IMG/VR virus record: IMGVR_UViG_3300048597_000654
Span: 1 to 48,755 of that record
Direction: 5' to 3' (one strand)
Length of the DNA stretch: 48,755 bases
Origin: a virus
In this document: piece by piece, positions 1,829 through 48,755 of the stretch
Position numbering within the stretch: position 1 is the stretch's first letter
Layout: each line of letters starts with the position of its first letter
Notes under the pieces: generated by a model
The model's input: only the letters and a program-made list of their open reading frames with translations
Databases searched by the model: none
What the model was told of the DNA's origin: nothing
Position numbers and translations under genes: made by a program

Positions 1829-2219
1829 CGGCTTTTTCTCCGTACTTTTTAAGCTCCAGGCTGAACTCCACTTGCTTGGGGATGCCGTTTTTCAGGAATA
1901 GATTGGCGCTGTCCTCTACTCGCTCAATCACGAAATACCCAAACACATGGCCAAGCCCACCCACAAGCAATTGGGGCTTACCCTGTGCAGCCAGCTCCCG
2001 TAAATCATCCATGACGGCATATCGACCTGTAACCTGGGGGAAGTAGGCCCCGGCCAAAGTAACAGTTTCTTCTCCCGGCCCGACAAATTGAAGGTTGGCA
2101 ATTCGGTTAATCCGCTCTTGAGCAGGCCAGCGGTAGGAGGTATTGCGCCGGAATTGATTGTAAGCCGCTAGCTCCACGGAAAAGGTGAAGTCACCCAGTT
2201 TCATCATAACGTCAGTCAT
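1815..2219 (-). CDS. U: P2 gpU-like tail protein
   Basis: A 134-residue protein of the gpU family. The signature pattern is present: 'MMKLGDFTFSVELAAYN' near the N-terminus, then 'RWPAQERI', a 'LAGAYFPQVTGR' strand and 'LVGGLGHVFGYFVIERV' around residues 85-101. GpU takes part in tail completion in P2-like phages. It starts within the end of the tape measure gene (overlap of 8 bases). Confidence 0.93.
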   Translation of the reverse strand: MTDVMMKLGDFTFSVELAAYNQFRRNTSYRWPAQERINRIANLQFVGPGEETVTLAGAYFPQVTGRYAVMDDLRELAAQGKPQLLVGGLGHVFGYFVIERVEDSANLFLKNGIPKQVEFSLELKKYGEKADGTV

Positions 2220-4533
2220 TCAAAGCCCCTCTGCGCTTCTTTTCGCCTTGGCGGCGTAATTCTTGGCGCAAGCTTTCCACGGCTGCTTTGTCCAGGGAGC
2301 CCCCAGGGTGGACTACAATACTCAGCCTTGTATTGTCATTGTATGTGCTGCCGCCTTTCCCGGTGGGCATAGGGATGACTCGGCCTGTGTTGTCTATATT
2401 GGCTTTAACGGGGGCCAAGTTTTCCAGGGGTTGGCCGGAAAAACTAAAGGCGTTTCCAAGAGCTGCCCCCATATTTTGTAAAACAGGCTGAATAGATTGC
2501 CATGCGCCCATTGTGGCTTTTACTGCTGAATCCCAAGCGCCAGTGACAGCAGGCCCCACTTTGTCCCAGTTGGCAACCAGTAAGCCAACAGCGAGAGAAA
2601 CGCCAGCAATCGCCCAACCCCAACCCGGAATCAATCCAATCAGCCGGGAAACTAGACCTATGGCCAAGGGTGCCATCCTCACAATAGCGGGTAAGGCTGC
2701 ACGTCCAAAAGAAGCAACGCCACGCAATGCAGCCCCTCCCATGGATTTGACACCGTTCAATGCCATACCACCGAAACGGGAGGCCCCTGTTTTTAAACCT
2801 TGGCCTATGGTCGATTTCGATGTGTATTGGCCGATTTTCGCCCCAATGTCCAACCCCTTCGCTTTTAAAAATTTAGAACCAGCCCAGCCCAATAAACCTA
2901 AACCGCCAGCGGTGGCCCCTGCAGTGCCGGCACCAGTAACGCGAGGATGTTTTTTGGCAAAGCCGTTACCCCAATCAAGAGCGCCTTCAGTTGCGCCCAT
3001 CACTTTGTCAGTAATGGGTTCGACAGATTTCCCTACATTCCCGGCAAGATTGCCAAACTTTCCAGAAATACGAGCCCACCGGTTGGTTTTTTGCCCTGCG
3101 ACTTCACCAAACTCTTCATTGATAGACTTTCCTGCAAATTTCGCCTTTTGGTCTACCAAATCGAAAGCATCAGCTAGTAAATTGACGTTGCCAACCAGCT
3201 TTTGAATTGGGTCTAGGGCTTCATCGCCGAACAAGCGAAGGATAACAGCGCCCCGCTTGTCTTTTGGTAGCTTGTTAATAGCGCTTAAAGTCTTAAATAT
3301 GACATTCCGGGCGTGCGCCTGGTCTTTGGAAAACTCTTTGGCAATATTCTCAGGGGAACCCATTCCAAGGTTACCCAACATATCCCAGGCTTTACGCCCC
3401 GGCTTTGTGGTTGCAAAACTCTTAACAAAAGGACGGATAAAGTGTTTCTGTCCAGTAGCGGCCACGTCTGGGGCGCTGCCAGAGCTTAACAGGCTGGCAC
3501 TAATGGCAGCGGCATCATATTCATTCAATACCCCTGTATTTTTTATGCCTGCACCACCCCTTTGAAGCACTTCCGCCAACTCAGAGGCCCGGACATTCCG
3601 CATTCTGTTGTCCAGGTAATTGACAGCATCCCCCAGTTCATAGGTTTGCTGCATTGTTAAGTTCATACCAGAGCGCCAGGCCATCATAGAGCGCCCAGCT
3701 TCCCCGGCTGCCATATCCCAGGCAACTGAGGCCTTAGCTGCCTGTAAGCCGAATTCTTTTTGCTGCTTTAGAGATTGGTTATCCGATGCAGCTGCAGAAA
3801 ACAAATCCCCTAATTCCTCAAGGGTTTGGCCAGTGGTTGCCCGCACATCCTCAATGTTGTCTCGGATACCCTGAAGGGCTGAAATTCGTTCTTTTGCGCT
3901 CCCAAACTCCATTACTTTCGCAACTGATCCAACAGCTCGCTCCATCTCAGCATCGGCTTTGATTGAGCCCAATACTGGAAGGGCAATAGCAGTTGCAATG
4001 GCACCCGCATCAATCAAGTTTCCTCGGGCATCGCTTAAATTGGCCGATGTTTCTGCGCGTCGATCGTTGGCTGCTTTTATACGAGCATGACGCTGGCCTA
4101 ATTTATTAAAACTTTTATCCAGCTTTTCATTTTCATTGGTAAGGCGACGTGTATCCACACCAGCCGCATGAAGTTCCCCGCGCAATGCATGGAGCTTACT
4201 TTTCTGCCGATCCATCGTTTCTGCAGCTTTACGCATGGACTGAACAGCCTTGTTCATTTCCAGTCGCATTGCATTGGTAGGCTTTTCGGTTTCCTTAAAG
4301 GCATTTCCCAGCTTTTCAACGCGAATACGAGCCTGCTCATAATCCTTTATGGCAGACCTCATTCCAGAGCGGGCGGAGTCGTACTTTTTTATTTTGTCCT
4401 GACTTTTAGCGATTTTTTTAAGTTCATCGCTAATTTTGCCAAGCTCTTTTGTGGATTTATTGATTGATCCACCCAATGAAGAGGCGACCGAGCCGCCAAT
4501 CTGGATTAATGCGCTTAGCTTCTTGGTCGCCAT
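2212..4533 (-). CDS. T: Tail tape measure protein (P2 gpT-like)
   Basis: A 773-residue protein. Residues 1-175 are charged and helical, with long coiled-coil character. The middle (about 190-480) resembles the TP901-type tape measure core, including 'SVAKVMEFG' and 'EELGDLFSAAASDNQSL'. The C-terminal third has Gly/Ala-rich hydrophobic segments (about 535-565 and 610-655), as expected for a protein ejected with DNA. Tape length sets tail length; with the usual rule of about 0.15 nm per residue the tail would be of order 115 nm. It starts three bases after the E' stop, the canonical position after the frameshifted E/E' pair. Confidence 0.93.
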   Translation of the reverse strand: MATKKLSALIQIGGSVASSLGGSINKSTKELGKISDELKKIAKSQDKIKKYDSARSGMRSAIKDYEQARIRVEKLGNAFKETEKPTNAMRLEMNKAVQSMRKAAETMDRQKSKLHALRGELHAAGVDTRRLTNENEKLDKSFNKLGQRHARIKAANDRRAETSANLSDARGNLIDAGAIATAIALPVLGSIKADAEMERAVGSVAKVMEFGSAKERISALQGIRDNIEDVRATTGQTLEELGDLFSAAASDNQSLKQQKEFGLQAAKASVAWDMAAGEAGRSMMAWRSGMNLTMQQTYELGDAVNYLDNRMRNVRASELAEVLQRGGAGIKNTGVLNEYDAAAISASLLSSGSAPDVAATGQKHFIRPFVKSFATTKPGRKAWDMLGNLGMGSPENIAKEFSKDQAHARNVIFKTLSAINKLPKDKRGAVILRLFGDEALDPIQKLVGNVNLLADAFDLVDQKAKFAGKSINEEFGEVAGQKTNRWARISGKFGNLAGNVGKSVEPITDKVMGATEGALDWGNGFAKKHPRVTGAGTAGATAGGLGLLGWAGSKFLKAKGLDIGAKIGQYTSKSTIGQGLKTGASRFGGMALNGVKSMGGAALRGVASFGRAALPAIVRMAPLAIGLVSRLIGLIPGWGWAIAGVSLAVGLLVANWDKVGPAVTGAWDSAVKATMGAWQSIQPVLQNMGAALGNAFSFSGQPLENLAPVKANIDNTGRVIPMPTGKGGSTYNDNTRLSIVVHPGGSLDKAAVESLRQELRRQGEKKRRGALND

Positions 4534-4536
4534 CTT

Positions 4537-4710
4537 TTATTCTGCCTTGTTTGGATTTTTACTGAGCCATCCAGTTAGGGCGGCAAGCCATGAAAACAAT
4601 TCATCTATTTCCATAGCCAAACACTCTGCTTTAGACCACCCTGTGTGGTAAGAAAGGCTTATTACTGCTCGTCTAAGTTCGTCTGTTTCAGGTGCTTTTT
4701 GGGAAAAAAA
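4537..4710 (-). CDS. E' extension of the tail assembly chaperone, reached by -1 frameshift
   Basis: In the -1 frame relative to gene E, an open frame runs from the slippery T7 run (4710-4704) to a TAA at 4539-4537, adding 55 residues to the first 81 of gpE (136 in total). The zero-frame codons are GGT TTT TTT, so T TTT TTT fits the X XXY YYZ slip rule. The extension holds the P2 GpE'-type pattern: 'ISLSYHTGWS', then 'MEIDELFSWL' and a tryptophan-rich end. In P2 this fusion is a tail assembly chaperone that works with the tape measure. There is an internal ATG in the -1 frame (MEIDEL), but it would give only a fragment. Confidence 0.85.
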   Translation of the reverse strand, partial: FFSQKAPETDELRRAVISLSYHTGWSKAECLAMEIDELFSWLAALTGWLSKNPNKAE

Positions 4711-8725: not shown

Positions 8726-9072
8726 TACCGGGTCACCTCACGAGAAACAGTGAATTTGCCACCAATCAACCGTGTTACCTCACCGCTCGGGTTTTCAATC
8801 TCCAAGTCATAAACACCTTCTAAAACCGTGATATTAGAGGTTTTTTCAGCAGGAATAACCACGTCAATCTTGCCATCCTCGCCGGTGATAATAAGCCCTC
8901 CCCCACTGGCATTGGTAAGGTTGGCCAGCAGCAACAGGGAGTCATAGGACGGGCGCAACTGCATGCGTGCATCAAAACCTGTAATGTCAACAGGGGTACC
9001 ACTGATGGAGTAGGTGACCGTCATTTTAAACGTTTCACCCTGCTTAATGATGATGTCTGTTGTGGATGGCAT
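8725..9072 (-). CDS. Baseplate/fibre-associated beta-rich protein
   Basis: A 115-residue all-beta protein: 'TDIIIKQGETFKMTVTYS', 'PVDITGFDARMQLRPSYDS' and 'VYDLEIENPSGEVTRLIGGKFTVS'. This pattern resembles the N-terminal domain of phage upper baseplate proteins (BppU-type) and small fibre-linked proteins common in Mu- and P2-like phages. It is coupled to the downstream fibre gene by a TAATG overlap, which suggests that the two products work together. The exact role is not known. Confidence 0.6.
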   Translation of the reverse strand: MPSTTDIIIKQGETFKMTVTYSISGTPVDITGFDARMQLRPSYDSLLLLANLTNASGGGLIITGEDGKIDVVIPAEKTSNITVLEGVYDLEIENPSGEVTRLIGGKFTVSREVTR

Positions 9073-9080
9073 TCGGCCTC

Positions 9081-9602
9081 CTAGGTTTTAATGATGTAGT
9101 TGAACACGATGGTAGGCTGGCAAATCGGGTGTGCATCGCCGCCGCCCACAGATGACGTTGCGTTGGAAGCGCCAGCGCTTGCGTTTGTGTTTGTGCCCGC
9201 TGCAGTGGCTCCATTTCCTGCCCCAGTACCAAGCATGTTGTGAGTATGTGCCGGGATTTGGCCAGTGGTTAATGTATGACGATCGGATCCACCAACGCTG
9301 CCCAATTCAGAGCCATTGATTCCAGGGTTACCGGTGCCGGTATTGGTTAAGCGACTGGCGGCAGTTCCGCCCATATTATCCATCCCTGCAAGCACACGCC
9401 CCCGGCAATCAGGCAGATTGAAAGTTGTTGAGCTATCCCCTACGCCATAAGTGGTGCCGATAACGTCGTACAAGCTGGCATAAGTGGTTCGACTTACCGC
9501 TTGACCATAGCAAAGCAGCCAGCCCGTTGGGGCAAATTCGCCAGCGTAAGGTAGCACGATCCCAGGGCCAAGCGCCGCAAATGAAGTTCCTTTTGATACC
9601 AT
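9081..9602 (-). CDS. Phage tail collar domain protein (second copy)
   Basis: A 173-residue protein made of a single tail collar domain: 'YAGEFAPTGWLLCYGQAVSR' (about 19-38), 'LYDVIGTTYGVGDSSTTFNLPDCRGR' pattern (44-69), 'GQIPAHTHNM' (118-127) and the ending 'FNYIIKT'. It is clearly homologous to the C-terminal 160 residues of the upstream 457-residue fibre and lacks that protein's shaft, so it probably arose by duplication. Collar domains form fibre tips or sites of receptor contact. Confidence 0.85.
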   Translation of the reverse strand: MVSKGTSFAALGPGIVLPYAGEFAPTGWLLCYGQAVSRTTYASLYDVIGTTYGVGDSSTTFNLPDCRGRVLAGMDNMGGTAASRLTNTGTGNPGINGSELGSVGGSDRHTLTTGQIPAHTHNMLGTGAGNGATAAGTNTNASAGASNATSSVGGGDAHPICQPTIVFNYIIKT

Positions 9603-9617
9603 TGTTCAGAGACTCCT

Positions 9618-10991
9618 TTAAATTTTGATGATGTACTGCAAGGCAATCCAGGGCTGGGTGTTGTTGTGGGCCAGTCCGCCACCGCTGCTGGTAGATGTAA
9701 AGGCTGGGCCTGATCCACCGTTGGCAATGGTGTAACGGTCGTTTCCTACTTCCGTACCCAAAGATCCACCCATATTGTGACTGTGGCCTGGCATTTCGTT
9801 GACCGAAAGTGTGTGGGTTTCCGAACCACCGGCACCGCCTAAAGTGTTGGCATTTGCCCCACCATTAGAAGCACTCGTAATACGATTGGAAGCGCCTGTT
9901 AACCCAATAGGAACACGGCCTCTCAAGTCTGGAATGTTGAATGTAGTCGAGCCATTACCCGTTCCAAACGTGGTGCCAATAGTATCAAATAGCTTTTGAT
10001 AGGTTGAACGGCTTACCGCTTGGCCATCACACAGCAGCCAACCTGAAGGGGCTGAAGCAACGGCATACGGTGCAATAGTGCCAGTGGGAACCAACAAGGC
10101 GGCGATTTTATTAATGGCTGAAGTCAACTGGGTTTCATCAGCCTGGTTTAAAACTAAACCAGCATCCAGAATGGTCTGATTCACCCTAGAGTCATATTTG
10201 TTTGTTTCTGCCGTCGGGTCATTTTGCACAAAAGAGATTTTTGTCCCGTTAGGATAGCTTTGGCCCAGCAATAATTGAGTTTCAGTGGTGGCCTCCCAGT
10301 CAAACTCACGGATACCCTCAAGATAGACAGCCAAGCCGTTTGTTTTGACAATGGACAAGTCCACTATGGTCTGATCAGCTGCAAGGGTTTGATGCTCTTC
10401 CAGTACGTCCAAAAACACCGCGAAGCCAGTGGCAGGGTCGAACCATTCCACATCCCCGTCTGCGTTCGTACGCTTCCTGAGAATCTGGCCAGTCAGTCCA
10501 CCAGGGATTTGAGCGGCAATTGTGAAATTGTCAGTCACCCATTGGCGGGATGCCAGGACAACCGTCGGGTCAATCTGCAAGGTGACAGCGGACACGTTGG
10601 AGACTTGAATATAAAGCCTGACCACCAATTCACGACCCGATCCCTCGGATAGAATAGGCTTGTAAGTTGCCGGGAAATTCGCCACAGCAAACAGTGTGCC
10701 ATCATTTGCAAACAAGCCCACTTCGTGCACCGTCCAGCCGCCTTCGCTGGTAGGAATAACCAAGTCGGCATACATATAGTTTGGATTGGTGGGGTCAATA
10801 TTGAGCTGGTTAATCGGCCCTCTGTAACGCTCACGCACCAATGCGGTTTGATTCTCTGCCGGGGTGGTCGGGTTACCGTTTCCATCCCCAACGGCCATTT
10901 GAGAGAGTGAGACTGTATTTCCCAATGCTAAGGCGTTCGCAACCTTGGCCTGCCCTGCAAGGGTAATTACTGTGAAATAGGTTGATGGCAT
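9618..10991 (-). CDS. Tail fibre protein, gpH-like N-terminus with collar-domain tip
   Basis: A 457-residue fibre. Residues 1-155 match the N-terminal baseplate-attachment part of P2 gpH ('YFTVITLAGQAKVANALALG', 'LSQMAVGDGNGN', 'GWTVHEVGLFANDG'). A strand-rich shaft follows, and the last 160 residues are a tail collar domain ('APSGWLLCDGQAVSR', 'PDLRGRVPIGL', 'NEMPGHSHNMGG', ending 'LQYIIKI'). Gene order I, H-like fibre is as in P2. No separate fibre-assembly chaperone gene (P2 G) was recognised. Confidence 0.9.
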   Translation of the reverse strand: MPSTYFTVITLAGQAKVANALALGNTVSLSQMAVGDGNGNPTTPAENQTALVRERYRGPINQLNIDPTNPNYMYADLVIPTSEGGWTVHEVGLFANDGTLFAVANFPATYKPILSEGSGRELVVRLYIQVSNVSAVTLQIDPTVVLASRQWVTDNFTIAAQIPGGLTGQILRKRTNADGDVEWFDPATGFAVFLDVLEEHQTLAADQTIVDLSIVKTNGLAVYLEGIREFDWEATTETQLLLGQSYPNGTKISFVQNDPTAETNKYDSRVNQTILDAGLVLNQADETQLTSAINKIAALLVPTGTIAPYAVASAPSGWLLCDGQAVSRSTYQKLFDTIGTTFGTGNGSTTFNIPDLRGRVPIGLTGASNRITSASNGGANANTLGGAGGSETHTLSVNEMPGHSHNMGGSLGTEVGNDRYTIANGGSGPAFTSTSSGGGLAHNNTQPWIALQYIIKI

Positions 10992-27461: not shown

Positions 27462-27935
27462 TCATTTGGGTTTCGGCTTACGTCTTTTCTTTAGAAAAAT
27501 TGTTTTATCAGAGCCTAATAGGCTTAATTGCTTAATGTGGGGCATCTGACCACGCTGGGGGCTGATGATGAGGAACACGGCACGCTCAGTCAGTTTAAAC
27601 ATTGCGGCCAGTTCCTCAACACGGTGCCCGGCATTATAAAGGCGGATTATTGAATCATTTCGATGCTTCCGTTCTAAGTGCCTACAGGTTGGAATTTTCA
27701 GGACTATGCCTCCAAATTCTCTACTGAGCGACCGGGCCAGTTCCAGCCCTAAGATTTCAGCTAAGCGATGCCCGGTATTTATTACTTGAGGGATGTACAG
27801 ATTTTTATCCCCAAAGATGCCGGCGATTCTCAGGGCGTTTTCACGGCCAACAATTTCAGCGACCTGGGCGAGTTCAGGGCTCAAGTCCTGATTGCATTCT
27901 GAGATAGGGAAGGAATAATCATCAGGATTTTTCAC
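27462..27935 (-). CDS. Mor/C-family late transcription activator
   Basis: A 157-residue protein with GTG start (AGGAG ten bases upstream). The second half fits the Mu Mor/C activator family: a helical dimerisation part, then 'LSREFGGIVLKIPTC' (about 85-99, the beta-strand linker) and a helix-turn-helix with 'RNDSIIRLYNAGHRVEELAAMFKLTERAVFLII' pattern. Mu Mor and C activate middle and late promoters. It is the last gene before lysis, packaging, head and tail genes, so it is probably their switch. Its end is strongly basic (KKRRKPKPK). Confidence 0.88.
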   Translation of the reverse strand: MKNPDDYSFPISECNQDLSPELAQVAEIVGRENALRIAGIFGDKNLYIPQVINTGHRLAEILGLELARSLSREFGGIVLKIPTCRHLERKHRNDSIIRLYNAGHRVEELAAMFKLTERAVFLIISPQRGQMPHIKQLSLLGSDKTIFLKKRRKPKPK

Positions 27936-28642: not shown

Positions 28643-28901
28643 TGTGCCTGCCCCCTGTTTTTCTGCCTATCGGCTCATAACTTATATACCGAGTGTTGTT
28701 GCAGCGCTTGCAGTGGCCTTTGAATGGCGTATGGCAAATGCAAGAACAATCCCCAATTGCTTCCTCTGGTTCATAATCACAGAATTGACAATCGCATTCG
28801 TGGACTGGGCCACCAGGCTCATAATCACAATTGCCGTCACACTCGCAATTCGGATCACGCCAACACCAGTGGCAGCGCACTTTAATCAAACTTGCTTCCA
28901 C
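28620..28901 (-). CDS. Cysteine-rich small protein, possible zinc-binding
   Basis: A 93-residue protein with about 15 cysteines arranged in close pairs: 'CHWC', 'CECDGNC', 'CDCQFC', 'CSCICH' and 'CKRC'. The spacing suggests two or three zinc sites and a tightly packed small fold. The GTG start forms a TAGTG overlap with the upstream gene. No known family fits clearly; nucleic acid or protein binding in the early phase is possible. Positive charge is concentrated at the C-terminus. Confidence 0.65.
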   Translation of the reverse strand: MEASLIKVRCHWCWRDPNCECDGNCDYEPGGPVHECDCQFCDYEPEEAIGDCSCICHTPFKGHCKRCNNTRYISYEPIGRKTGGRHNARNTTK

Positions 28902-29212
28902 TATTGGCCTGCTTTCTCAATGCTCAACTGACCTTGTTCCTCAGTTCTGTTCAGGTGATCATAAAGCCTATGCAACATAGCTCCCGTTTGTGCAAGTTCG
29001 CATATAACTGCCTCTTTTGGGCCTCTACCCCATTGGTATTCGCACAAAGCCTTTGAAAGCTCGCCAAACTCCTCTGCAAGAATCAAGTGGGCACTTGAGA
29101 TGCTAACGGGCCATTGTGGAAACTTGCGTATGGCCTTGTTTAATTCATCTGCCACAAGATCATTTAATGGCATCATGTTTATCAGGTCTTGTCTGAACTG
29201 GGCATTGTCCAT
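28901..29212 (-). CDS. MazG-like nucleotide pyrophosphohydrolase fold protein
   Basis: A 103-residue all-helical protein. The segment 'ILAEEFGELSKALCEY' (about 44-59) contains the EExxE-type metal-binding pattern of the MazG/all-alpha NTP-PPase superfamily, followed by a second helix 'EAVICELAQTGAMLHRL' with Glu/Gln at the expected places. Such phage enzymes hydrolyse nucleotide triphosphates or alarmones. It is coupled to its upstream neighbour by TAATG. Its last residues, 'GQLSIEKAGQ', are nearly identical to the end of the aspartic protease, due to a 28-base DNA repeat. Confidence 0.65.
   Translation of the reverse strand: MDNAQFRQDLINMMPLNDLVADELNKAIRKFPQWPVSISSAHLILAEEFGELSKALCEYQWGRGPKEAVICELAQTGAMLHRLYDHLNRTEEQGQLSIEKAGQ
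28908..28935. repeat. 28-base direct repeat, copy 1
   Basis: This stretch, at the 3' end of the MazG-like gene, matches 29548-29575 at 27 of 28 positions. Both copies are in the same orientation and encode the same reading frame, giving the shared C-terminus 'GQLSIEKAG'. Distance between copies is 640 bases. Confidence 0.85.
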
Positions 29213-29541
29213 TAACGCAAATCCTCTTTTTCTTGTTTGACCAAAACAACGGAAACAACCATTTCCTTTATCCAGTCCTCTTCCCTGTCCTCATCGTCTT
29301 GGCATAGAAGTGTTTCACCATCAGGGTTTTTAAGTTCAATAACAAGTCTGTCGTCGTCATCTACTTCTAAATCGCCATAGAGCACCTCAACGGCAGTTTC
29401 AAGTAAATCAAAACCCCGTACATTGCCGCCTACTTCAACTTCAAATATTTTCGAGTAATCCCACTGCATAAGCGTTATGGCGTAAGTGCATTTATGCCAG
29501 TACATGTTGGGATCGTGTTTTTTAATTAAAGTGTTAGTCAT
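29212..29541 (-). CDS. Hypothetical early protein, DUF5406-like
   Basis: A 109-residue acidic protein. The pattern 'YAITLMQWDYSKIFEVEVGGNVRGFDLLETAVE' (about 20-52) recalls the DUF5406 family; this is from memory and moderate in strength. The C-terminal half is acidic ('DDDDRLVIE', 'QDDEDREEDWIKEM'). Both ends are TAATG junctions. The function is not known. Confidence 0.6.
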   Translation of the reverse strand: MTNTLIKKHDPNMYWHKCTYAITLMQWDYSKIFEVEVGGNVRGFDLLETAVEVLYGDLEVDDDDRLVIELKNPDGETLLCQDDEDREEDWIKEMVVSVVLVKQEKEDLR

Positions 29542-29993
29542 TAGTTACCTGCTTTCTCAATACTCAACTGACCTTTGTTAATCCGTAAATCCACCTGTGA
29601 GAGAAACGACATCCCCAGCAAGCCCGCAAGCAAGGGATCATCATCAATCCGTTTCACCACAGCGGCCACATTGTGAACGGTGACTGGTCCCACCTGAATA
29701 GAGGAGAGGGTCACCCGTGGGCAGGCTTGAACACCATTGGCAGTCAGGATGGAAACGCGGGGTGTTTCATCGGATACGATAACGCCAAGCTTGCTGGCCA
29801 GTTCCGGGGTAATGACCGCATACGTGGAGCCGGTATCGATAATAAAAGTGCCAATGGCCTGGCGATTGATAAACGCCGTGGTGATCAAAGTGTCCTTTGG
29901 CGGCAGAGAGTCCTCACAAAAAGCGGCTATCAGAGCGCCACATATCGCCCCTAAAATAAGGCCTGCCAGGCATTGAATCAGAAGTCTTTTCAT
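29541..29993 (-). CDS. Membrane-anchored retropepsin-like aspartic protease
   Basis: A 150-residue protein. Residues 4-25 are a single hydrophobic span preceded by basic residues (signal anchor). The rest matches the clan AA, retropepsin-like bacterial proteases: catalytic 'FIIDTGSTYAVI' (Asp53-Thr-Gly-Ser) and the matching 'LAGLLGMSFLSQVDL' (about 122-136), with 'INKGQLSIE' as the closing strand. Retropepsins act as homodimers, so the fold should dimerise in the periplasm or at the inner membrane face. Host copies occur in Proteobacteria; one inside a phage early operon is unusual. Its target is unknown. Confidence 0.82.
   Translation of the reverse strand: MKRLLIQCLAGLILGAICGALIAAFCEDSLPPKDTLITTAFINRQAIGTFIIDTGSTYAVITPELASKLGVIVSDETPRVSILTANGVQACPRVTLSSIQVGPVTVHNVAAVVKRIDDDPLLAGLLGMSFLSQVDLRINKGQLSIEKAGN
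29548..29575. repeat. 28-base direct repeat, copy 2
   Basis: Second copy of the repeat at 28908-28935, here at the 3' end of the aspartic protease gene (one mismatch). It includes the end of the coding frame, and gives 'GQLSIEKAGN'. Confidence 0.85.
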
Positions 29994-29999
29994 AATGTA

Positions 30000-30581
30000 T
30001 TACCCTTTCTGGAAAATCATTTGAGGCATTTTTTGAGGCCTGTAACTTTTACGGATCATTGTTTTGAGCTTGCTGGCATCGGCCACTTCCAAATGCTCTA
30101 CTTTGGAATCAGAGGCATCATAGGCAGCCACCTTCAATACGCCGGCTTTTTTCATTCGGTTCATCTGGCTCCAAATGTGGTTACTATTCCAATCAGCCCA
30201 GCCCATATAGCAGGATTGGTTCAAGTATTTAACAATGCCGCTAGTGCAGGGTTTTTCCAGCGAAGGCAACGCCCGAACAATCTCAGCACGCAACGCCGCG
30301 CCTTCCTCTTCAGACATTCTATAATCCAAGGGGCGGCGTTTATCTTCCGGGATTTCTTTAACAGGAATAGGCTCTATTTTTGGGATAGGCTTTATTCCTA
30401 CTGATAGGAGGCGTTGGTTTGATTCGGGTTGGTGGCATTTAAGTTCATCCGTTTTATCTTTGTGCCGCCCGTAAATCTTATAGATGGGGCAGTTCTGGCA
30501 ATCCGCTCCAGTATCCCGGCACCGAAGCCCTTCCTCTGTCCAGTAGGATTGTCGCAATGTGGTGGTGATATTACTGAACAC
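30000..30581 (-). CDS. Hypothetical protein with cysteine motif and possible winged helix
   Basis: The start chosen is GTG at 30581 (193 residues), preceded by AAGGAG at seven bases; longer versions have no ribosome site. Near the N-terminus is 'CRDTGADCQNCPIYKIYG', a possible metal site. The region of about residues 95-170 ('SEEEGAALRAEIVRALPSLE', 'SNHIWSQMNRMKKAGVLKVA') looks like a winged helix-turn-helix. It overlaps the DUF6378-like gene by 11 bases. Function unknown; a DNA-binding regulator is possible. Confidence 0.65.
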   Translation of the reverse strand: MFSNITTTLRQSYWTEEGLRCRDTGADCQNCPIYKIYGRHKDKTDELKCHQPESNQRLLSVGIKPIPKIEPIPVKEIPEDKRRPLDYRMSEEEGAALRAEIVRALPSLEKPCTSGIVKYLNQSCYMGWADWNSNHIWSQMNRMKKAGVLKVAAYDASDSKVEHLEVADASKLKTMIRKSYRPQKMPQMIFQKG

Positions 30582-42910: not shown

Positions 42911-43186
42911 TATGAAACCCCTTCATTTTCTTACGTGAAATTTATTATCGTTCAGCTTATCGAAAATATTCTCTAGTCGCAACCTAAAAGCATGAATGCC
43001 TATCCATGAAATACGATTTACTCTTTAACGGCAAGTATTGTTAACCGCCTAGTCAGTAGATTTTCAGACTGGCTTGTGTTTTCCGACAGTTTGAGTGTGT
43101 TTGAGGACAATTTTATCCTGTTACATTTCGTTTCCTGTTTCTGTCTTATAATCACGGACGAGCTTAGCAGACAAAGGGCGTGGAAT
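42799..43186. other. Noncoding stretch between repressor and membrane protein genes
   Basis: About 390 bases, AT-rich. It includes the small minus-strand frame at 42767-42910. A plausible plus-strand -10 (TATAAT, 43147-43152) lies upstream of the membrane protein gene; the -35 element is weak. Nothing else clear. Confidence 0.5.
43147..43152 (+). promoter_or_regulatory. Candidate -10 box of the membrane protein-recombinase promoter
   Basis: TATAAT, 35 bases before the ATG at 43187. No strong -35 at the right spacing (TTACAT at 20 bases is poor). The sequence supports separate transcription of the last two rightward genes from the repressor gene. Confidence 0.4.
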
Positions 43187-43891
43187 ATGGAAGGATTGAT
43201 TGCTTTTATTAGTATTTTCATGATGGGTTTCATCACAGCTCCAATACTTTTTTGGCATTCAGGCAAAATGAAAAAATGGGCAATATTTGGACTTCTCCTC
43301 CCTGCATTTGCTCTGCCTTTGTATATTTTAAAAGGGAAGAATAAACCTTTTCTGACAGTTTTTTGCTCTATCGGGTTTATATGTATATGGTTCATGGTCA
43401 CTGGATTTACAGGGATAGCACTTGATACTGACTACAGGAATGAGTGGGATAAAAAAGAGGCGGCCAAGATTGAGGAAGCGGAAAAGCCCGAAAGCAAACT
43501 GAAACAAGTTTTAAAAAAACAATTTGGTGATAATCTAACTTATACCAATATTTCCAATTATGACGATAAGCCCTATACGATTATTTTTAGTTTTGAGGCA
43601 GACCCTTTAGGATCAGATTCTGATATTATTCGACGCATTGAGAACGAATATGCGGAATCAATATTAGCCCTTCATAAAACAGGAATTCCATTAGAGCAGG
43701 TGGCTTGCTCAGCATATTTACCTCTTCAGGATTTGTATGGAAATGAAGAGTCAAAAAAAGTTTTTACAACTACTATCAGAGAGCCTGTTCTTAACAAGGT
43801 TAATTGGGACCGAGAAGATTTCGATCTGATTCACTTTATTCTCCCTAGGCTATGGGAAAAACCTGAAATTCATCATGCCTTGAGAGATTAA
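43187..43891 (+). CDS. Membrane protein of unknown function next to the recombinase
   Basis: Start at ATG 43187 (234 residues; ribosome site AAGG), preferred over a longer frame starting at 43076. Three spans: 'LIAFISIFMMGFITAPILF', 'WAIFGLLLPAFALPLYIL' and 'FLTVFCSIGFICIWFMVTG' (about residues 4-24, 33-51 and 58-80). A C-terminal soluble domain of about 140 residues begins with a charged helix and has 'IIFSFEADPLGSDSDIIRRI' and 'LIHFILPRLWEKP'. It ends four bases before the recombinase gene, in the block expressed by the lysogen. A role in superinfection exclusion or defence is possible. Confidence 0.7.
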   Translation: MEGLIAFISIFMMGFITAPILFWHSGKMKKWAIFGLLLPAFALPLYILKGKNKPFLTVFCSIGFICIWFMVTGFTGIALDTDYRNEWDKKEAAKIEEAEKPESKLKQVLKKQFGDNLTYTNISNYDDKPYTIIFSFEADPLGSDSDIIRRIENEYAESILALHKTGIPLEQVACSAYLPLQDLYGNEESKKVFTTTIREPVLNKVNWDREDFDLIHFILPRLWEKPEIHHALRD

Positions 43892-43895
43892 GACA

Positions 43896-45389
43896 ATGAA
43901 TCAGGCAGTCATATACGCACGGGTTTCCAGTAAAGAGCAAGAGCAGGAGGGGTTTTCAATCCCCGCCCAGTTGGAGCTTTTAAGAAAATACGCCCAAAAA
44001 CAGGGTTTTGAAGTCCTGCGTGAGTATTCAGAGGCAGAAACCGCCAAAACGTCCGGGCGGGAAGAATTCGGCCAAATGGTGGCTTTTATCCAAAAGAGAA
44101 AAACAGCCATGGCCATCCTGGTAGAAAAAACCGATCGGCTGTATCGAAACCTGAAAGACTTTATCCTGATTGATGACTTGGTGAACGAGCAGCTGACCGT
44201 TATCCACAAGGTCAAAGAAGGGAAGGTTATCAGCAAGGACAGCCACAGCTCTGAAAAATATTTTGAACTGCTGATGATGGGCCAGGCCAAGCAATATGTG
44301 GACAACCTCTCAGAGGAAGTAAAAAAGGGCCAGCGCCAAAAAGTCATGGCCGGTGGGTGGGCTTGGGTGGCTCCCTTTGGATACAAAAATAATCGGGCCA
44401 TCAAGAACATTGAACCAGACCCGGATGCGGCTCCGTTTGTTCGCAGGGCTTACGAAATATACGCATCGGGTCATTCCATACAGGCCACCATAGAAAAACT
44501 GGCTAATGAGGGCTTGAGCTACCGCCCGTATGCCCAAAAAATCAACAAGACAAAACTGGGCGAGCTACTGCGCTCAAAAATCTACATGGGCGAAATCGAA
44601 TACAAGGGCGAAATTTACCCCGGCAAATTTGAGCCATTGGTAAGCAGAGCCCTTTGGTACGAGGTACAAGTTCAACTACGGAAAGGGAATAAACCCGTGG
44701 AAATGAATAAACAAGATTTTATTTTCAAAGGGAAGGTTATTTGTGACGAATGTGGAAAGCCCTTTGTGGGCGAATATAAGAAAGGCGGGCGATACGTCTA
44801 TTACCGCTGTTCGGACATGAAAAAAACTTGCTCTCAGGGCTACATCAGCGAGGCGAAATTATTAGAGGCTGTGACATGCGAGTTGGCCAAGCTTCCATTT
44901 ACTGCAGATGACGCTGAAATGATCAGAAACGCAGTCAAAGATATGGCCCAGTACAAAGACAACACGGCGCTTGATGAGCTGGCCCGCATTGAAAAAGAAC
45001 GGAAACGCCTCATCAGAAACCGCAGTATCGCTTATCAGGATCGCCTGGCCGGAATTATTGATGTTGCCATGTACCAGGAAATAGAGGCGGACTGTGACGA
45101 GCGCATGCTCAAATGTGAGGAAAGTATTACACGATTGCGGAAAGCAGAGGACAATTACTATCAGCAAGCCGATATGCTTATCGAACTCCCCGAACTGCTT
45201 AATATGAGCTGGATTTCAGGATCTTACGAGGAAAAAAAGGAATTGCTGAATTTTGCCACTTCGAACTTAAAAACCAAAAACGGAAACACAAGCGTTGAGC
45301 TGGTTTCCGTATTATCTGGCTTGGTGTCTGGGGCCACTAGAAATGAGTGGCGGGGTGGACGGGACTCGAACCCGCGACATCTTGCGTGA
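43896..45389 (+). CDS. Large serine recombinase (integrase)
   Basis: A 497-residue recombinase. The resolvase domain is at the start, with the catalytic serine in 'YARVSSKEQ' (Ser11) and the usual 'LVEKTDRLYRNLKDFI' region (about 68-83). A 'recombinase' domain follows ('QRQKVMAGGWAWVAPFGY', 'AYEIYASGHSIQATIEKLA'), then a zinc ribbon ('CDECGKPFVGEY...YYRCSDMKKTC') and a coiled coil. The last residues 'RGGRDSNPRHLA' are encoded by the reverse of tRNA-Asp, with the stop codon in the anticodon loop region, which marks the attachment site. It should integrate and, with a partner, excise the phage. Confidence 0.95.
   Translation: MNQAVIYARVSSKEQEQEGFSIPAQLELLRKYAQKQGFEVLREYSEAETAKTSGREEFGQMVAFIQKRKTAMAILVEKTDRLYRNLKDFILIDDLVNEQLTVIHKVKEGKVISKDSHSSEKYFELLMMGQAKQYVDNLSEEVKKGQRQKVMAGGWAWVAPFGYKNNRAIKNIEPDPDAAPFVRRAYEIYASGHSIQATIEKLANEGLSYRPYAQKINKTKLGELLRSKIYMGEIEYKGEIYPGKFEPLVSRALWYEVQVQLRKGNKPVEMNKQDFIFKGKVICDECGKPFVGEYKKGGRYVYYRCSDMKKTCSQGYISEAKLLEAVTCELAKLPFTADDAEMIRNAVKDMAQYKDNTALDELARIEKERKRLIRNRSIAYQDRLAGIIDVAMYQEIEADCDERMLKCEESITRLRKAEDNYYQQADMLIELPELLNMSWISGSYEEKKELLNFATSNLKTKNGNTSVELVSVLSGLVSGATRNEWRGGRDSNPRHLA
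45348..45389. other. Probable attachment site within tRNA-Asp
   Basis: The recombinase frame runs through this stretch, which is the 3' half of tRNA-Asp read backwards. The tRNA's 3' end faces the prophage, as in phages that restore the tRNA from their own DNA on integration. The exact core cannot be set without the other junction. Confidence 0.6.
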
Positions 45390-45424
45390 CAGGCAAGTAC
45401 TCTAACCAACTGAGCTACCACCCC
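45348..45424 (-). tRNA. tRNA-Asp (anticodon GTC), CCA encoded
   Basis: Minus strand: acceptor arm GGGGTGG with CCACCCC, D arm with GCTC/GAGT pairing and GGTTAG-type loop, anticodon arm TTGCC-TGTCACG with anticodon GTC, T arm CGGGTTCGAGTCCCG, discriminator G, and encoded CCA (45350-45348). All arms pair. The gene is complete although the prophage is joined to it. Confidence 0.96.
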
Positions 45425-45852: not shown

Positions 45853-47334
45853 CTAATAGCCCGTGTAACGATTGCCAGGACGATAGGAACGAGACTTTTT
45901 AACCGCCTTGCAAGGCAGCCGACATTTTTGCATCACCGCATAGCGCAGGCAATCCATCACATCCTCGTAAGGGTGCTCCTGTAGGGGCGATTCCGAACCA
46001 GATGGGCCGTAGCGGTACCCGCCCTCAAATGCCTCAATCAGCTTTTCACAGCGAAAATCCACTTGCAAGGCCGGACGAAGGCCAACCCATTCCGACAGCT
46101 TAACCCGCAACAATTCCAGCCCATCCTTGATAGAAGAGCGATCAAAGAACGGAAAAACCCCCAGGCTATTCAGAATATCAATGCTCGTCTGCAAGCTCTT
46201 ATCGGAGCGCTGAGCCCCCGCAGGATCGCAAATATCCTCCACGGGAACCTGCCCATAGTCCGCCTCGGTTAAATGGGTCACCCGCTTGGCAAAATCCGTC
46301 AGCAACTCCTGTTTGCCCACCACTTCCCGAAGCACCAACAGCCGATCCTCGCTATCAAAGGCCAAAAAAAGGCAGGAGGGGCAGTGGAAGCCAAAATCCC
46401 AGCTGCGAATGATCTTTTGAGGCTTAAAATCCTGAAAATCTCCTTTGTGGGACTCGTCAAAATTTCGAAAAACCCGATCCTTCAGGGACAAGTGATAGTT
46501 AATATCCAGTTCCCGGGCGATTTCATCCTCACTCAGCCTTTTTTTCTGGGTGGCGTACCAGCTTTCATCCCGCAGCGGGTGTTCTCGCCAATGGATGCGT
46601 AAGACCCGCACTTGCCCGGAAAACCGCAAATCGGCAAAGCGGTTGTTCTTTCCGTAAGGGGTGCCTACTACAATGCGGCTGGGAGTGGACTGTCCGGCAG
46701 AGGCATAGGCGGCGTCCTGCATGGGCCAGAAAGGGAACTCATCAAACAAAACGGCCTTGTAACGTCCTCCTCGCCCAAAATTCTCATTGCTGCTTTCCCC
46801 GGTAATGGTATTGCCATTGGCCGGGTTCAGCAGACGCAACAGATTGTCATGAATCGTATCCTGAAACCCCTCCGGTCGCATCCAGTAAGGCAGCCAGGCC
46901 AGGTTGTAGCGCAACTTTTCCATTAAAGTGGACAGATCGCCCTTGCGATCCACCGCCTCCTGCTTGCGGGAACCCAAATGAAAATTGGCCCCGTCCCGAA
47001 ACAGCCAGAAGTATTGAAAAGCCAGTAGCACCAGCCAGCTCAACCCCATGTCCCGGCTTTTCTCAATCAACAGATCTTCCCCGTTTTCAATGGCGGCCAA
47101 CAGATCCATCAAAACCTTTTCCTGAAAGGGATAAGGAACAAAAGGCTGATGCGGCTGATCCAGCCGGGGGTCAAACGTCCAGCAAAAATGCCGAAACCAG
47201 AAGCGGACATCCCGCTTGCACCAAAGCATCAAAAGGGCTTGTAACTCAGGGTTATCATACGCCGCCTGAGCCAGGCTCAGGCGGCGCAACAGCCATTGAC
47301 GGGGCAAGGAAACCGTATTATCCATCGTACGCAT
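45853..47334 (-). CDS. Terminase large subunit of a second phage
   Basis: A 493-residue protein with start at ATG 47334 (AGAAGG upstream). Walker A-like 'LIEKSRDMGLSWL' (about 91-103), Walker B 'AVLFDEFPFW' (about 191-200) and nuclease aspartates in 'IRSWDFGFHCPSCLFLAFDS' are visible. It also shows 'GTPYGKNNRFADLRFSG' as a coupling motif. The type resembles podovirus and headful packaging terminases (Terminase_6-like), not the lambda gpA type at 23.7-25.6 kb. Two such terminases in one window point to two phages. It ends 250 bases before a terminator. Confidence 0.88.
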   Translation of the reverse strand: MRTMDNTVSLPRQWLLRRLSLAQAAYDNPELQALLMLWCKRDVRFWFRHFCWTFDPRLDQPHQPFVPYPFQEKVLMDLLAAIENGEDLLIEKSRDMGLSWLVLLAFQYFWLFRDGANFHLGSRKQEAVDRKGDLSTLMEKLRYNLAWLPYWMRPEGFQDTIHDNLLRLLNPANGNTITGESSNENFGRGGRYKAVLFDEFPFWPMQDAAYASAGQSTPSRIVVGTPYGKNNRFADLRFSGQVRVLRIHWREHPLRDESWYATQKKRLSEDEIARELDINYHLSLKDRVFRNFDESHKGDFQDFKPQKIIRSWDFGFHCPSCLFLAFDSEDRLLVLREVVGKQELLTDFAKRVTHLTEADYGQVPVEDICDPAGAQRSDKSLQTSIDILNSLGVFPFFDRSSIKDGLELLRVKLSEWVGLRPALQVDFRCEKLIEAFEGGYRYGPSGSESPLQEHPYEDVMDCLRYAVMQKCRLPCKAVKKSRSYRPGNRYTGY

Positions 47335-47344
47335 GCCCGCCCTT

Positions 47345-48085
47345 CTATAGCCCCATTAAAGCCATGGCGATTTGAGAGCTGGCCCGCAGGGCGCTTTCCC
47401 GGTTCAGCCGGTTTTGCTCGGCCTGAAGGGAGGCATTCTGATTGCTGGCCTGCATGGCCAGACTGGCCCGCTGTACCGCCAAATCGCTAGCCCGCTGTGT
47501 TTCGTTCAGCAAAAGACTGCTGCCATTACTTTGCAAGCCTCGGGCCTGGTTGTTGAGATCGGCCAGATAATTTTGAAACAGGGAAAAACGCCGCACCCGG
47601 CTGTCTTCATCCGCCCGGTAAAGCGCTTCACCCAGCAAGCCGGACTGCTTGTGCGCCTCCGCCAATTGCCCCAGCCGGTTGTTTTCCATCTGTGCCAGCA
47701 GGTTGGCCCCAAAAGTGGCGTTATAAGCCCCGCCAAAACGTTTCGCAAGGCTGGTTCTGGTTTGAGCCAACTGGGCGTTGGCGCTGCTGTTAATACCGGA
47801 TGCCTGCAAATCAAAAAAGTCCTGGCCACGCTGCGTGATGGCTTGCTGACGGACGGGATCCGGCTGGTTTAGTTCTTTGGCCAAATTTTGAAGTCCCTTC
47901 AGGCTTTCTTGAACCGTCAACCGGGTGGTGGGGGTTAAAAAACTCTCAAAGGTTTGCTCACTCCCACGGGTGGTGGTCACATAGCGATCTCCCGTGGGAC
48001 TATTAAATGCCACCTTGGTAATGGCGGGTGGCGCCACAATTTTAATTTCCTTTTTTGGGGTCTTCTTCTTACGTCCTAAAGACAT
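47345..48085 (-). CDS. Possible internal virion or ejection protein
   Basis: A 246-residue protein, start at ATG 48085 with GGAG eight bases upstream. The N-terminus is basic ('MSLGRKKKTPKKEIKIVAPP'), then beta, and from residue 65 on almost entirely helical and Gln/Asn/Ala-rich ('LAKRFGGAYNATFGANLLAQ', 'NLNNQARGLQ'-like 'YLADLNNQARGLQSNGSSLL', 'QASNQNASLQAEQNRLNRES'). This composition is usual for podovirus internal virion or DNA ejection proteins. It is ten bases from the terminase gene. No family recognised with certainty. Confidence 0.55.
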   Translation of the reverse strand: MSLGRKKKTPKKEIKIVAPPAITKVAFNSPTGDRYVTTTRGSEQTFESFLTPTTRLTVQESLKGLQNLAKELNQPDPVRQQAITQRGQDFFDLQASGINSSANAQLAQTRTSLAKRFGGAYNATFGANLLAQMENNRLGQLAEAHKQSGLLGEALYRADEDSRVRRFSLFQNYLADLNNQARGLQSNGSSLLLNETQRASDLAVQRASLAMQASNQNASLQAEQNRLNRESALRASSQIAMALMGL

Positions 48086-48197
48086 GGTTGGGCTCCTTCT
48101 AACGGGTTGGGACAGAAAATCCGATCTGCTTCGAGCGAACCGGGTTCACGCTACTTTCAGGGAAACAGCGGCTGGCGCTGCGTTTAATAAGGCAGGG

Positions 48198-48755
48198 CTA
48201 CAAGCCACCCGGCAACCGGGGCAATAAAACGGATTGATAGCTATGGGCAGACAAGCTGTAAATGGCCACATCCCGCAAACGGCCATCCTGTTTGATATCG
48301 GCTTTAAACAGGGCTTCCCGCTGAAAGCCCAGGCGCAAACAAAAGCCCTTGGCGCCAGCGTTATCCACTTCAAACTCCGCTTTCAGCTTGAGCAGCGCCA
48401 ACGGGCCAAAAGCAGCCTTTAAAACGGGAAACAGGGTACGTTCAATATCCCGGCAAGCATCGGCGCTTTTCCGCAAATCGGGATGGGTGACCCCATGTAA
48501 AAAAGCATGACGACCGGGTTGAACATCCGTTAAAGCCGCAATCGCCCAGACATCCCCGGCGCAATCAGCCAGCACCCAAAGCCACGGTATACAGGCGGCG
48601 GTATTTTCCATTAAAAAACAGGTGTCCGCATCCGGGTTTTTAGTGCGGCTGGCGTCATCCAATAGAATGCTTCGGTACGTCTTGAGCAATGCGCCAATCG
48701 TGGGCTGATACGCAGCCCATTCTTCCATGCTGGAAATGCGAAAAACCCGGCGCAT
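48198..48755 (-). CDS. GNAT-like acetyltransferase (at window edge, may be partial)
   Basis: An open frame starting with ATG at the last base of the window, so it might begin further right. Residues about 55-165 look like a GNAT fold: 'LWVLADCAGDVWAIAALTDV', 'HGVTHPDLRKSADACRDIER' and 'NAGAKGFCLRLGFQREALFK' with the 'N-x-x-A...LGF' C-terminal signature. Phage T7 gp13 and similar virion proteins have a GNAT-like fold, which fits the neighbouring genes. The family R/Q-x-x-G-x-G/A signature is not obvious. Confidence 0.6.
   Translation of the reverse strand: MRRVFRISSMEEWAAYQPTIGALLKTYRSILLDDASRTKNPDADTCFLMENTAACIPWLWVLADCAGDVWAIAALTDVQPGRHAFLHGVTHPDLRKSADACRDIERTLFPVLKAAFGPLALLKLKAEFEVDNAGAKGFCLRLGFQREALFKADIKQDGRLRDVAIYSLSAHSYQSVLLPRLPGGL

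Follow-up and report, generated by a model that had tools for sequence, protein, structure and literature searches.

Retropepsins work as dimers in which each chain gives one Asp to the active site, and in retroviruses they mature the viral polyproteins. The closest solved fold to the phage protein considered here is that of APRc from Rickettsia (RC1339; PDB 5c9b/d/f), with 28-32% identity in fold alignments. APRc is a single-domain membrane retropepsin that dimerises and cleaves the exported adhesins OmpA and OmpB in vitro (PMC4140852). Its role in autotransporter processing in vivo is disputed, as RapL, a putative serine protease, does this work (PMC10414592); RapL was therefore not accepted as evidence that retropepsins mature autotransporters. 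Proteolysis of an exported adhesin is also described for FhaB of Bordetella, a two-partner-secretion (TPS) protein that is processed by the periplasmic enzymes DegP and CtpA (PMC8263021). In viruses of bacteria, retropepsins are already known, as is the family TIGR02281 to which the protein belongs.

The gene lies in the window, which is the whole stretch of DNA that was analysed (48,755 nucleotides; IMG/VR record IMGVR_UViG_3300048597_000654). Its product resembles APRc in being membrane-associated and single-domain; unlike it, APRc is encoded by a conserved rickettsial gene, resides in the outer membrane and is not phage-borne. The phage retropepsin folds in BFVD (crAss-like ctDAq1 and cr111_1, and Siphoviridae ct3o911) are 14-16% identical to it, by structural alignment only. 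Within the scope of our searches, three things are new: a minimal, phage-specific retropepsin lineage that occurs in unrelated phages, the anchored form of this lineage, and the pairing of a TpsB transporter with a retropepsin in Vampirovibrionales hosts.

Identity and predicted activity of the protease

The open reading frame that the earlier note read as a retropepsin-like clan AA protease was recovered with exactly the same boundaries, on the minus strand (Table 1), and both motifs quoted there are present, FIIDTGSTYAVI at residues 50-61 and GLLGMSFL at residues 124-131. Family and structure searches bear the assignment out. The protein exceeds the curated cut-offs of PF13650 (E=8e-20) and PF13975 (E=1e-19), and scores 69.9 bits against NCBIfam TIGR02281 (clan_AA_DTGA), for which the cut-off is 57.95. 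APRc is matched in the PDB by sequence (E=3e-6) as well as by fold (E=2e-8), and is followed by HIV-1 protease among the best solved folds for the AlphaFold model. The model itself has a pLDDT of 87.8, with values above 90 across most of the chain; residues 2-24 form its single helix and residues 36-147 its beta domain.

Each chain has one D-T-G and one hydrophobic-hydrophobic-Gly motif, as clan AA and TIGR02281 require. In the second motif, neither L126 nor G127 varies among 40 relatives and L125 is kept in at least 90% of them; in a set of 22, all three positions are invariant. The protein is very probably an active retropepsin, and with one Asp per chain it would be active as a dimer. Judged from the sequence comparison with its closest copy, in the prophage contig L015, the gene is under purifying selection (dN/dS 0.20; Fisher p=3e-4).

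Table 1. Positions in the window of the retropepsin gene, its motifs and its operon neighbours.
Feature	Coordinates	Strand	Remarks
Retropepsin gene	29541..29993	(-)	150 aa, ATG start; protease domain at residues 36-147
N-terminal membrane anchor (predicted)	29922..29990	(-)	residues 2-24, G11xxxG15xxxG19xxxA23; from model helix and hydropathy
Codons of catalytic D53-T54-G55	29829..29837	(-)	invariant in 40/40 aligned relatives
Codons of L125-L126-G127	29613..29621	(-)	second retropepsin motif
28-nt segment at retropepsin 3' end	29548..29575	(-)	encodes last beta strand (QLSIEK); contains Shine-Dalgarno for next gene
Copy of 28-nt segment	28908..28935	(-)	27/28 identical; end of MazG-like gene
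Upstream operon gene	30000..30572	(-)	no known family; start coordinate tentative
DUF5406 / phrog_3409 gene	29212..29541	(-)	next gene downstream
MazG-like small gene	28901..29212	(-)	NTP pyrophosphohydrolase-like; second of inserted pair; phrog_32803 4e-11, phrog_2245 0.005
Mor-like late transcription activator	27462..27935	(-)	closes the early region

N-terminal anchor and topology

A signal anchor had been proposed for the protein. Its hydrophobic N-terminal helix is found both in the model and by hydropathy, and inspection of the sequence speaks for its being uncleaved. The N-terminus reaches a Kyte-Doolittle value of 2.46 over 19 residues, contains an apolar run of 19 residues and has zero charged residues between positions 4 and 25. 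By comparison, three measured relatives give only 1.1-1.7, and their N-termini resemble cleavable signal peptides. A polar c-region was not seen by inspection, nor was a lipobox before any N-terminal Cys, so that a lipoprotein was rejected and the segment is likely to be an anchor that stays uncleaved, in N-in/C-out orientation. The L015 copy retains G11, G15, G19 and A23 while anchor residues 9, 13 and 14 differ, and such a glycine-zipper helix may help the obligatory retropepsin dimer to form. Behind the anchor, a linker of about 10 residues leads directly into the protease domain. An anchored enzyme facing the periplasm is likely, though we hold this with a little less confidence than the retropepsin assignment.

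Operon context

The gene is part of a tight leftward operon. Its ATG lies 6 nt past the stop of the upstream gene, and the start of the downstream gene overlaps its end as TAATG. Genes for a helicase, a primase, an ERCC4 nuclease, a Dam-type methylase and a DUF6378 protein are found upstream, while DUF5406, the MazG-like gene, small genes, the Mor-like late activator and an M15 endolysin follow downstream. The placement in an early operon proposed in the earlier note is upheld by this position between the replication genes and the Mor-like activator; the early timing itself is read from gene order, which suggests expression before the late genes. A promoter scan returned fewer matches than in shuffled sequences. 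Elsewhere in the genome, the capsid gene of the phage includes a fused S78 prohead protease. Phage prohead maturation proteases are cytoplasmic and encoded beside portal and capsid genes, whereas the retropepsin has an export anchor and lies outside the head module.

Occurrence in phages and origin from a host lineage

The rarity of such proteases in phages, as the earlier note supposed, is borne out. No credible match was obtained by tblastn against the 50,697 phage records of INPHARED with three different retropepsins as queries, and a motif scan of IMG/VR found a retropepsin in four other contigs only. Viral contigs scanned separately for the retropepsin, the primase and DUF5406 gave nothing, but as such scans require exact short peptide matches they say little on absence. 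Since other phages, crAss-like ones included, have annotated retropepsin folds, phage retropepsins are rare and not unprecedented.

The suggestion to look in other prophage early regions proved fruitful. A genome scan with a 3-row alignment found L015, a 9.5-kb contig of a Vampirovibrio sp. MAG, which carries a 95% identical retropepsin in its early operon. Its synteny with the window extends from the primase to TerL, and the remaining genes are mostly 78-97% identical. A third related prophage on contig C82 of the same MAG (primase about 50% and ERCC4 61% identical) has no retropepsin, so the gene is accessory in this phage group and dispensable there. Near the corresponding slot of the prophage without retropepsin (L140, 14497-14850) is a gene for a 117-aa protein of no known family with an apparent N-terminal hydrophobic segment.

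A second phage type carries a related gene. L149 is an unrelated podophage from IMG/VR, with a T7-type primase-helicase and an internal virion protein, and its retropepsin (4213-4638) is spacerless, 56% identical over the domain and closer to the window protein than any host copy. The N-terminus of this protein differs from the anchor of the window form in resembling a cleavable signal peptide (MKLWGIFIFLSLLGQPAPA/EE), and the enzyme is therefore probably free in the periplasm. The TPR-retropepsins of other prophages (L012/L013 and L014) are of another kind: they have a TIGR02281-type domain but keep the full host architecture, and two of them (L012 2753-3892 and L014 9158-10312) are 73-74% identical to chromosomal genes of Paraburkholderia and Bradyrhizobium. 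On sequence grounds, these are independent captures.

The host of the window phage appears to be Vampirovibrio, a predatory bacterium, from the MAG-binned contigs and from the protease tree. Retropepsins are general in the order, as 18/18 genomes searched have them, with 1-4 in each; setting the prophage copy aside, the best host retropepsin is 50% identical to that of the window. The tree (109 rows, 118 columns) is coarse, although its key branches are starred. In it, the window, L015 and L149 proteins form a phage-specific clade (support 100/96) that is sister to a 15-row clade of Vampirovibrionales host proteins, with joint support of 100/97. That two unrelated phage types share a minimal spacerless form points to a phage lineage of the gene and not to separate recent captures. 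The earlier note had named as its ground for refutation a recent insertion of host DNA that related phages lack; this does not agree with the presence of the gene in both the syntenic prophage of Vampirovibrio and the unrelated podophage. Recent host DNA at a prophage edge was likewise rejected, given the synteny of the operon in a second prophage and host copies that are at most 50% identical. The best reading is of a host-lineage protease that was captured and trimmed.

Linkage of the sister host clade to two-partner secretion

The host sister clade has a distinctive neighbour. In 11 of its 15 rows a TpsB gene lies directly upstream on the same strand, with a gap of 111-342 nt, and all 11 TpsB-linked rows in the tree fall within this clade. 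When the linkage was counted with independent coordinates taken from family searches, 10/36 retropepsins in the order were linked, against 0.03 expected. The transporter is of the ShlB/FhaC type (ShlB 3e-30, with POTRA_2), and the gene pair is seen in the Vampirovibrionales chromosomes L144, L145, L146, L147, L142 and L016. A second host retropepsin lineage without a TpsB link forms a separate clade. In five genomes where the linkage is clear (G001, G002, G003, G017 and G018), a search for canonical TpsA (PF05860) gave no match. Divergent from a TpsB gene in L146, a gene at 8880-10847 encodes a 655-aa exported Gly/Asn-rich protein of no known family, which is a possible candidate for the exported partner.

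Host and phage forms differ in architecture. The TpsB-linked retropepsins (for example G003:C4:66287 and L144:16021-16662) are exported members of the same TIGR02281 subfamily at no more than 50% identity; their N-terminus resembles a signal peptide, a spacer containing an NPLIA-type motif precedes the protease domain, and the TpsB gene lies upstream, while the window form has an anchor and none of these. No TpsB gene is found near the phage retropepsin in the window or L015, or among the L149 open reading frames. As the phage genes are without this neighbour and their clade is sister to the TpsB-linked host clade and not nested in it, the specificity for the target may have changed. In our literature search, no description of the host gene pair was found, nor any paper joining "retropepsin" and "two-partner secretion". 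Another adhesin-export setting of a retropepsin was seen on the Ochrobactrum plasmid L007, where the gene (2218-3312) is flanked by a giant adhesin gene on one side and a type I secretion system on the other.

Proposed function and alternatives

Of the roles considered in the earlier note, cleavage of a host envelope protein fits best with the periplasmic topology and the TpsB-linked sister clade, while the substrate and the benefit to the phage are ones that we infer. The adjacency of the sister host genes to a surface-protein exporter makes host envelope proteins the probable targets, and the APRc and FhaB precedents, together with retropepsin dimerisation, suggest a periplasm-facing enzyme that would cut an envelope or exported surface protein. 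According to the mechanism we propose, a Vampirovibrio phage acquired a periplasmic retropepsin of the host lineage and cut it down to a short anchor and the protease domain. Made in the early or middle lytic phase, the enzyme would insert its anchor in the inner membrane and place the protease in the periplasm, where two copies would pair into an active site with one Asp each, perhaps aided by the small-residue face of the anchor. The dimer would then cleave a host envelope protein. The likeliest targets would be those of the sister clade, namely the proteins that leave the cell by the adjacent two-partner-secretion pore, or else that pore system, and the stripping or shedding of surface adhesins or receptors could favour progeny release or block superinfection.

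That the substrate of the phage enzyme is an envelope or surface protein of the host at all is, in our estimate, an evenly balanced proposition. The complete account of a captured, anchored and dimeric periplasmic retropepsin with such a substrate is held tentatively, at somewhat below an even chance, and a TPS-type protein as the substrate is possible but rather unlikely. More doubtful still is the broadest version, by which Vampirovibrionales phages share a minimal periplasmic retropepsin lineage that derives from an undescribed TpsB-retropepsin host system and cuts an exported adhesin or pore to control attachment, shedding or superinfection. Should the proposed function hold, a phage aspartic protease would act on the outer face of the inner membrane of its host, with a tie to surface-protein export that can be tested, and this would suggest a part for retropepsins in the maturation or shedding of type V secreted proteins beyond Rickettsia.

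The same topology would suit an enzyme that weakens or re-sets the cell wall or envelope, for instance through cleavage of a protein that regulates peptidoglycan enzymes, and so aids lysis or its timing instead of removing surface proteins. The operon does run on to the Mor-like activator and the M15 endolysin, and RloA, a secreted retropepsin-like protein of Pseudomonas, affects cell shape, osmotic tolerance and biofilm (PMC12239564). RloA is, however, a RimB relative (PMC12239564), and no RimB-type family was among the Pfam or NCBIfam matches of the window protein; moreover, the small genes and late activator that intervene before the endolysin place the retropepsin outside the lysis cassette. 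We regard this explanation as unlikely. Cleavage of a membrane-bound host defence effector or sensor is less likely again. Many anti-defence genes are, like this one, early accessory genes in a mosaic slot that are apparently swapped between phages, but no defence system adjoins the relatives examined, the host relatives sit by a TpsB exporter instead, and a periplasmic active site would reach only part of the membrane defence proteins.

Two further explanations appear improbable. The gene could be neutral or decaying host cargo of no use to the phage, given that host relatives are common and that one related prophage lacks it; against this stand the low dN/dS, the intact active-site motifs, a phage-specific clade that spans two unrelated phage types, and tight integration in the operon. 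The least probable by a little is the processing of a phage protein, whether of the virion or the membrane, which was also among the roles suggested earlier. Although this is what retroviral retropepsins do, the phage already has the S78 protease on its capsid gene, which makes a maturation role unlikely, and the retropepsin has an export anchor. The podophage with a related retropepsin, in turn, has an unrelated virion.

Mosaic structure around the retropepsin

Identity between the window and L015 ends at the TAATG after the retropepsin, beyond which L015 has a DUF3850 gene and the window the DUF5406 and MazG-like pair. The 28-nt segment that precedes the final codons of the retropepsin recurs at the end of the MazG-like gene, outside the family match of the latter (Table 1). 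The simplest order of events that fits this pattern has the retropepsin already present when the pair arrived. Between the window and L015, dS is 0.12 for the retropepsin against 0.21-0.61 for neighbouring genes, which suggests a recent exchange of the retropepsin segment. A recent exchange is also suggested for DUF5406, as the copies in L140 (16635-16964) and the window are 81% identical, against 31-61% for most of the other early genes that the two prophages share.

The far end of the window has features of its own. A serine recombinase gene (43896-45424) runs into a tRNA-Asp gene on the opposite strand (45348-45424), and this junction is probably the attachment site. Beyond it, at 45853-48755, are a second terminase large subunit, of a type unlike that of the main prophage, and further genes, and the record looks like a composite of two phages. 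The gene at 43076-43891, which separates the repressor from the recombinase, encodes a 271-aa membrane protein with a weak phrog_8263 match and is a candidate lysogeny-expressed gene.
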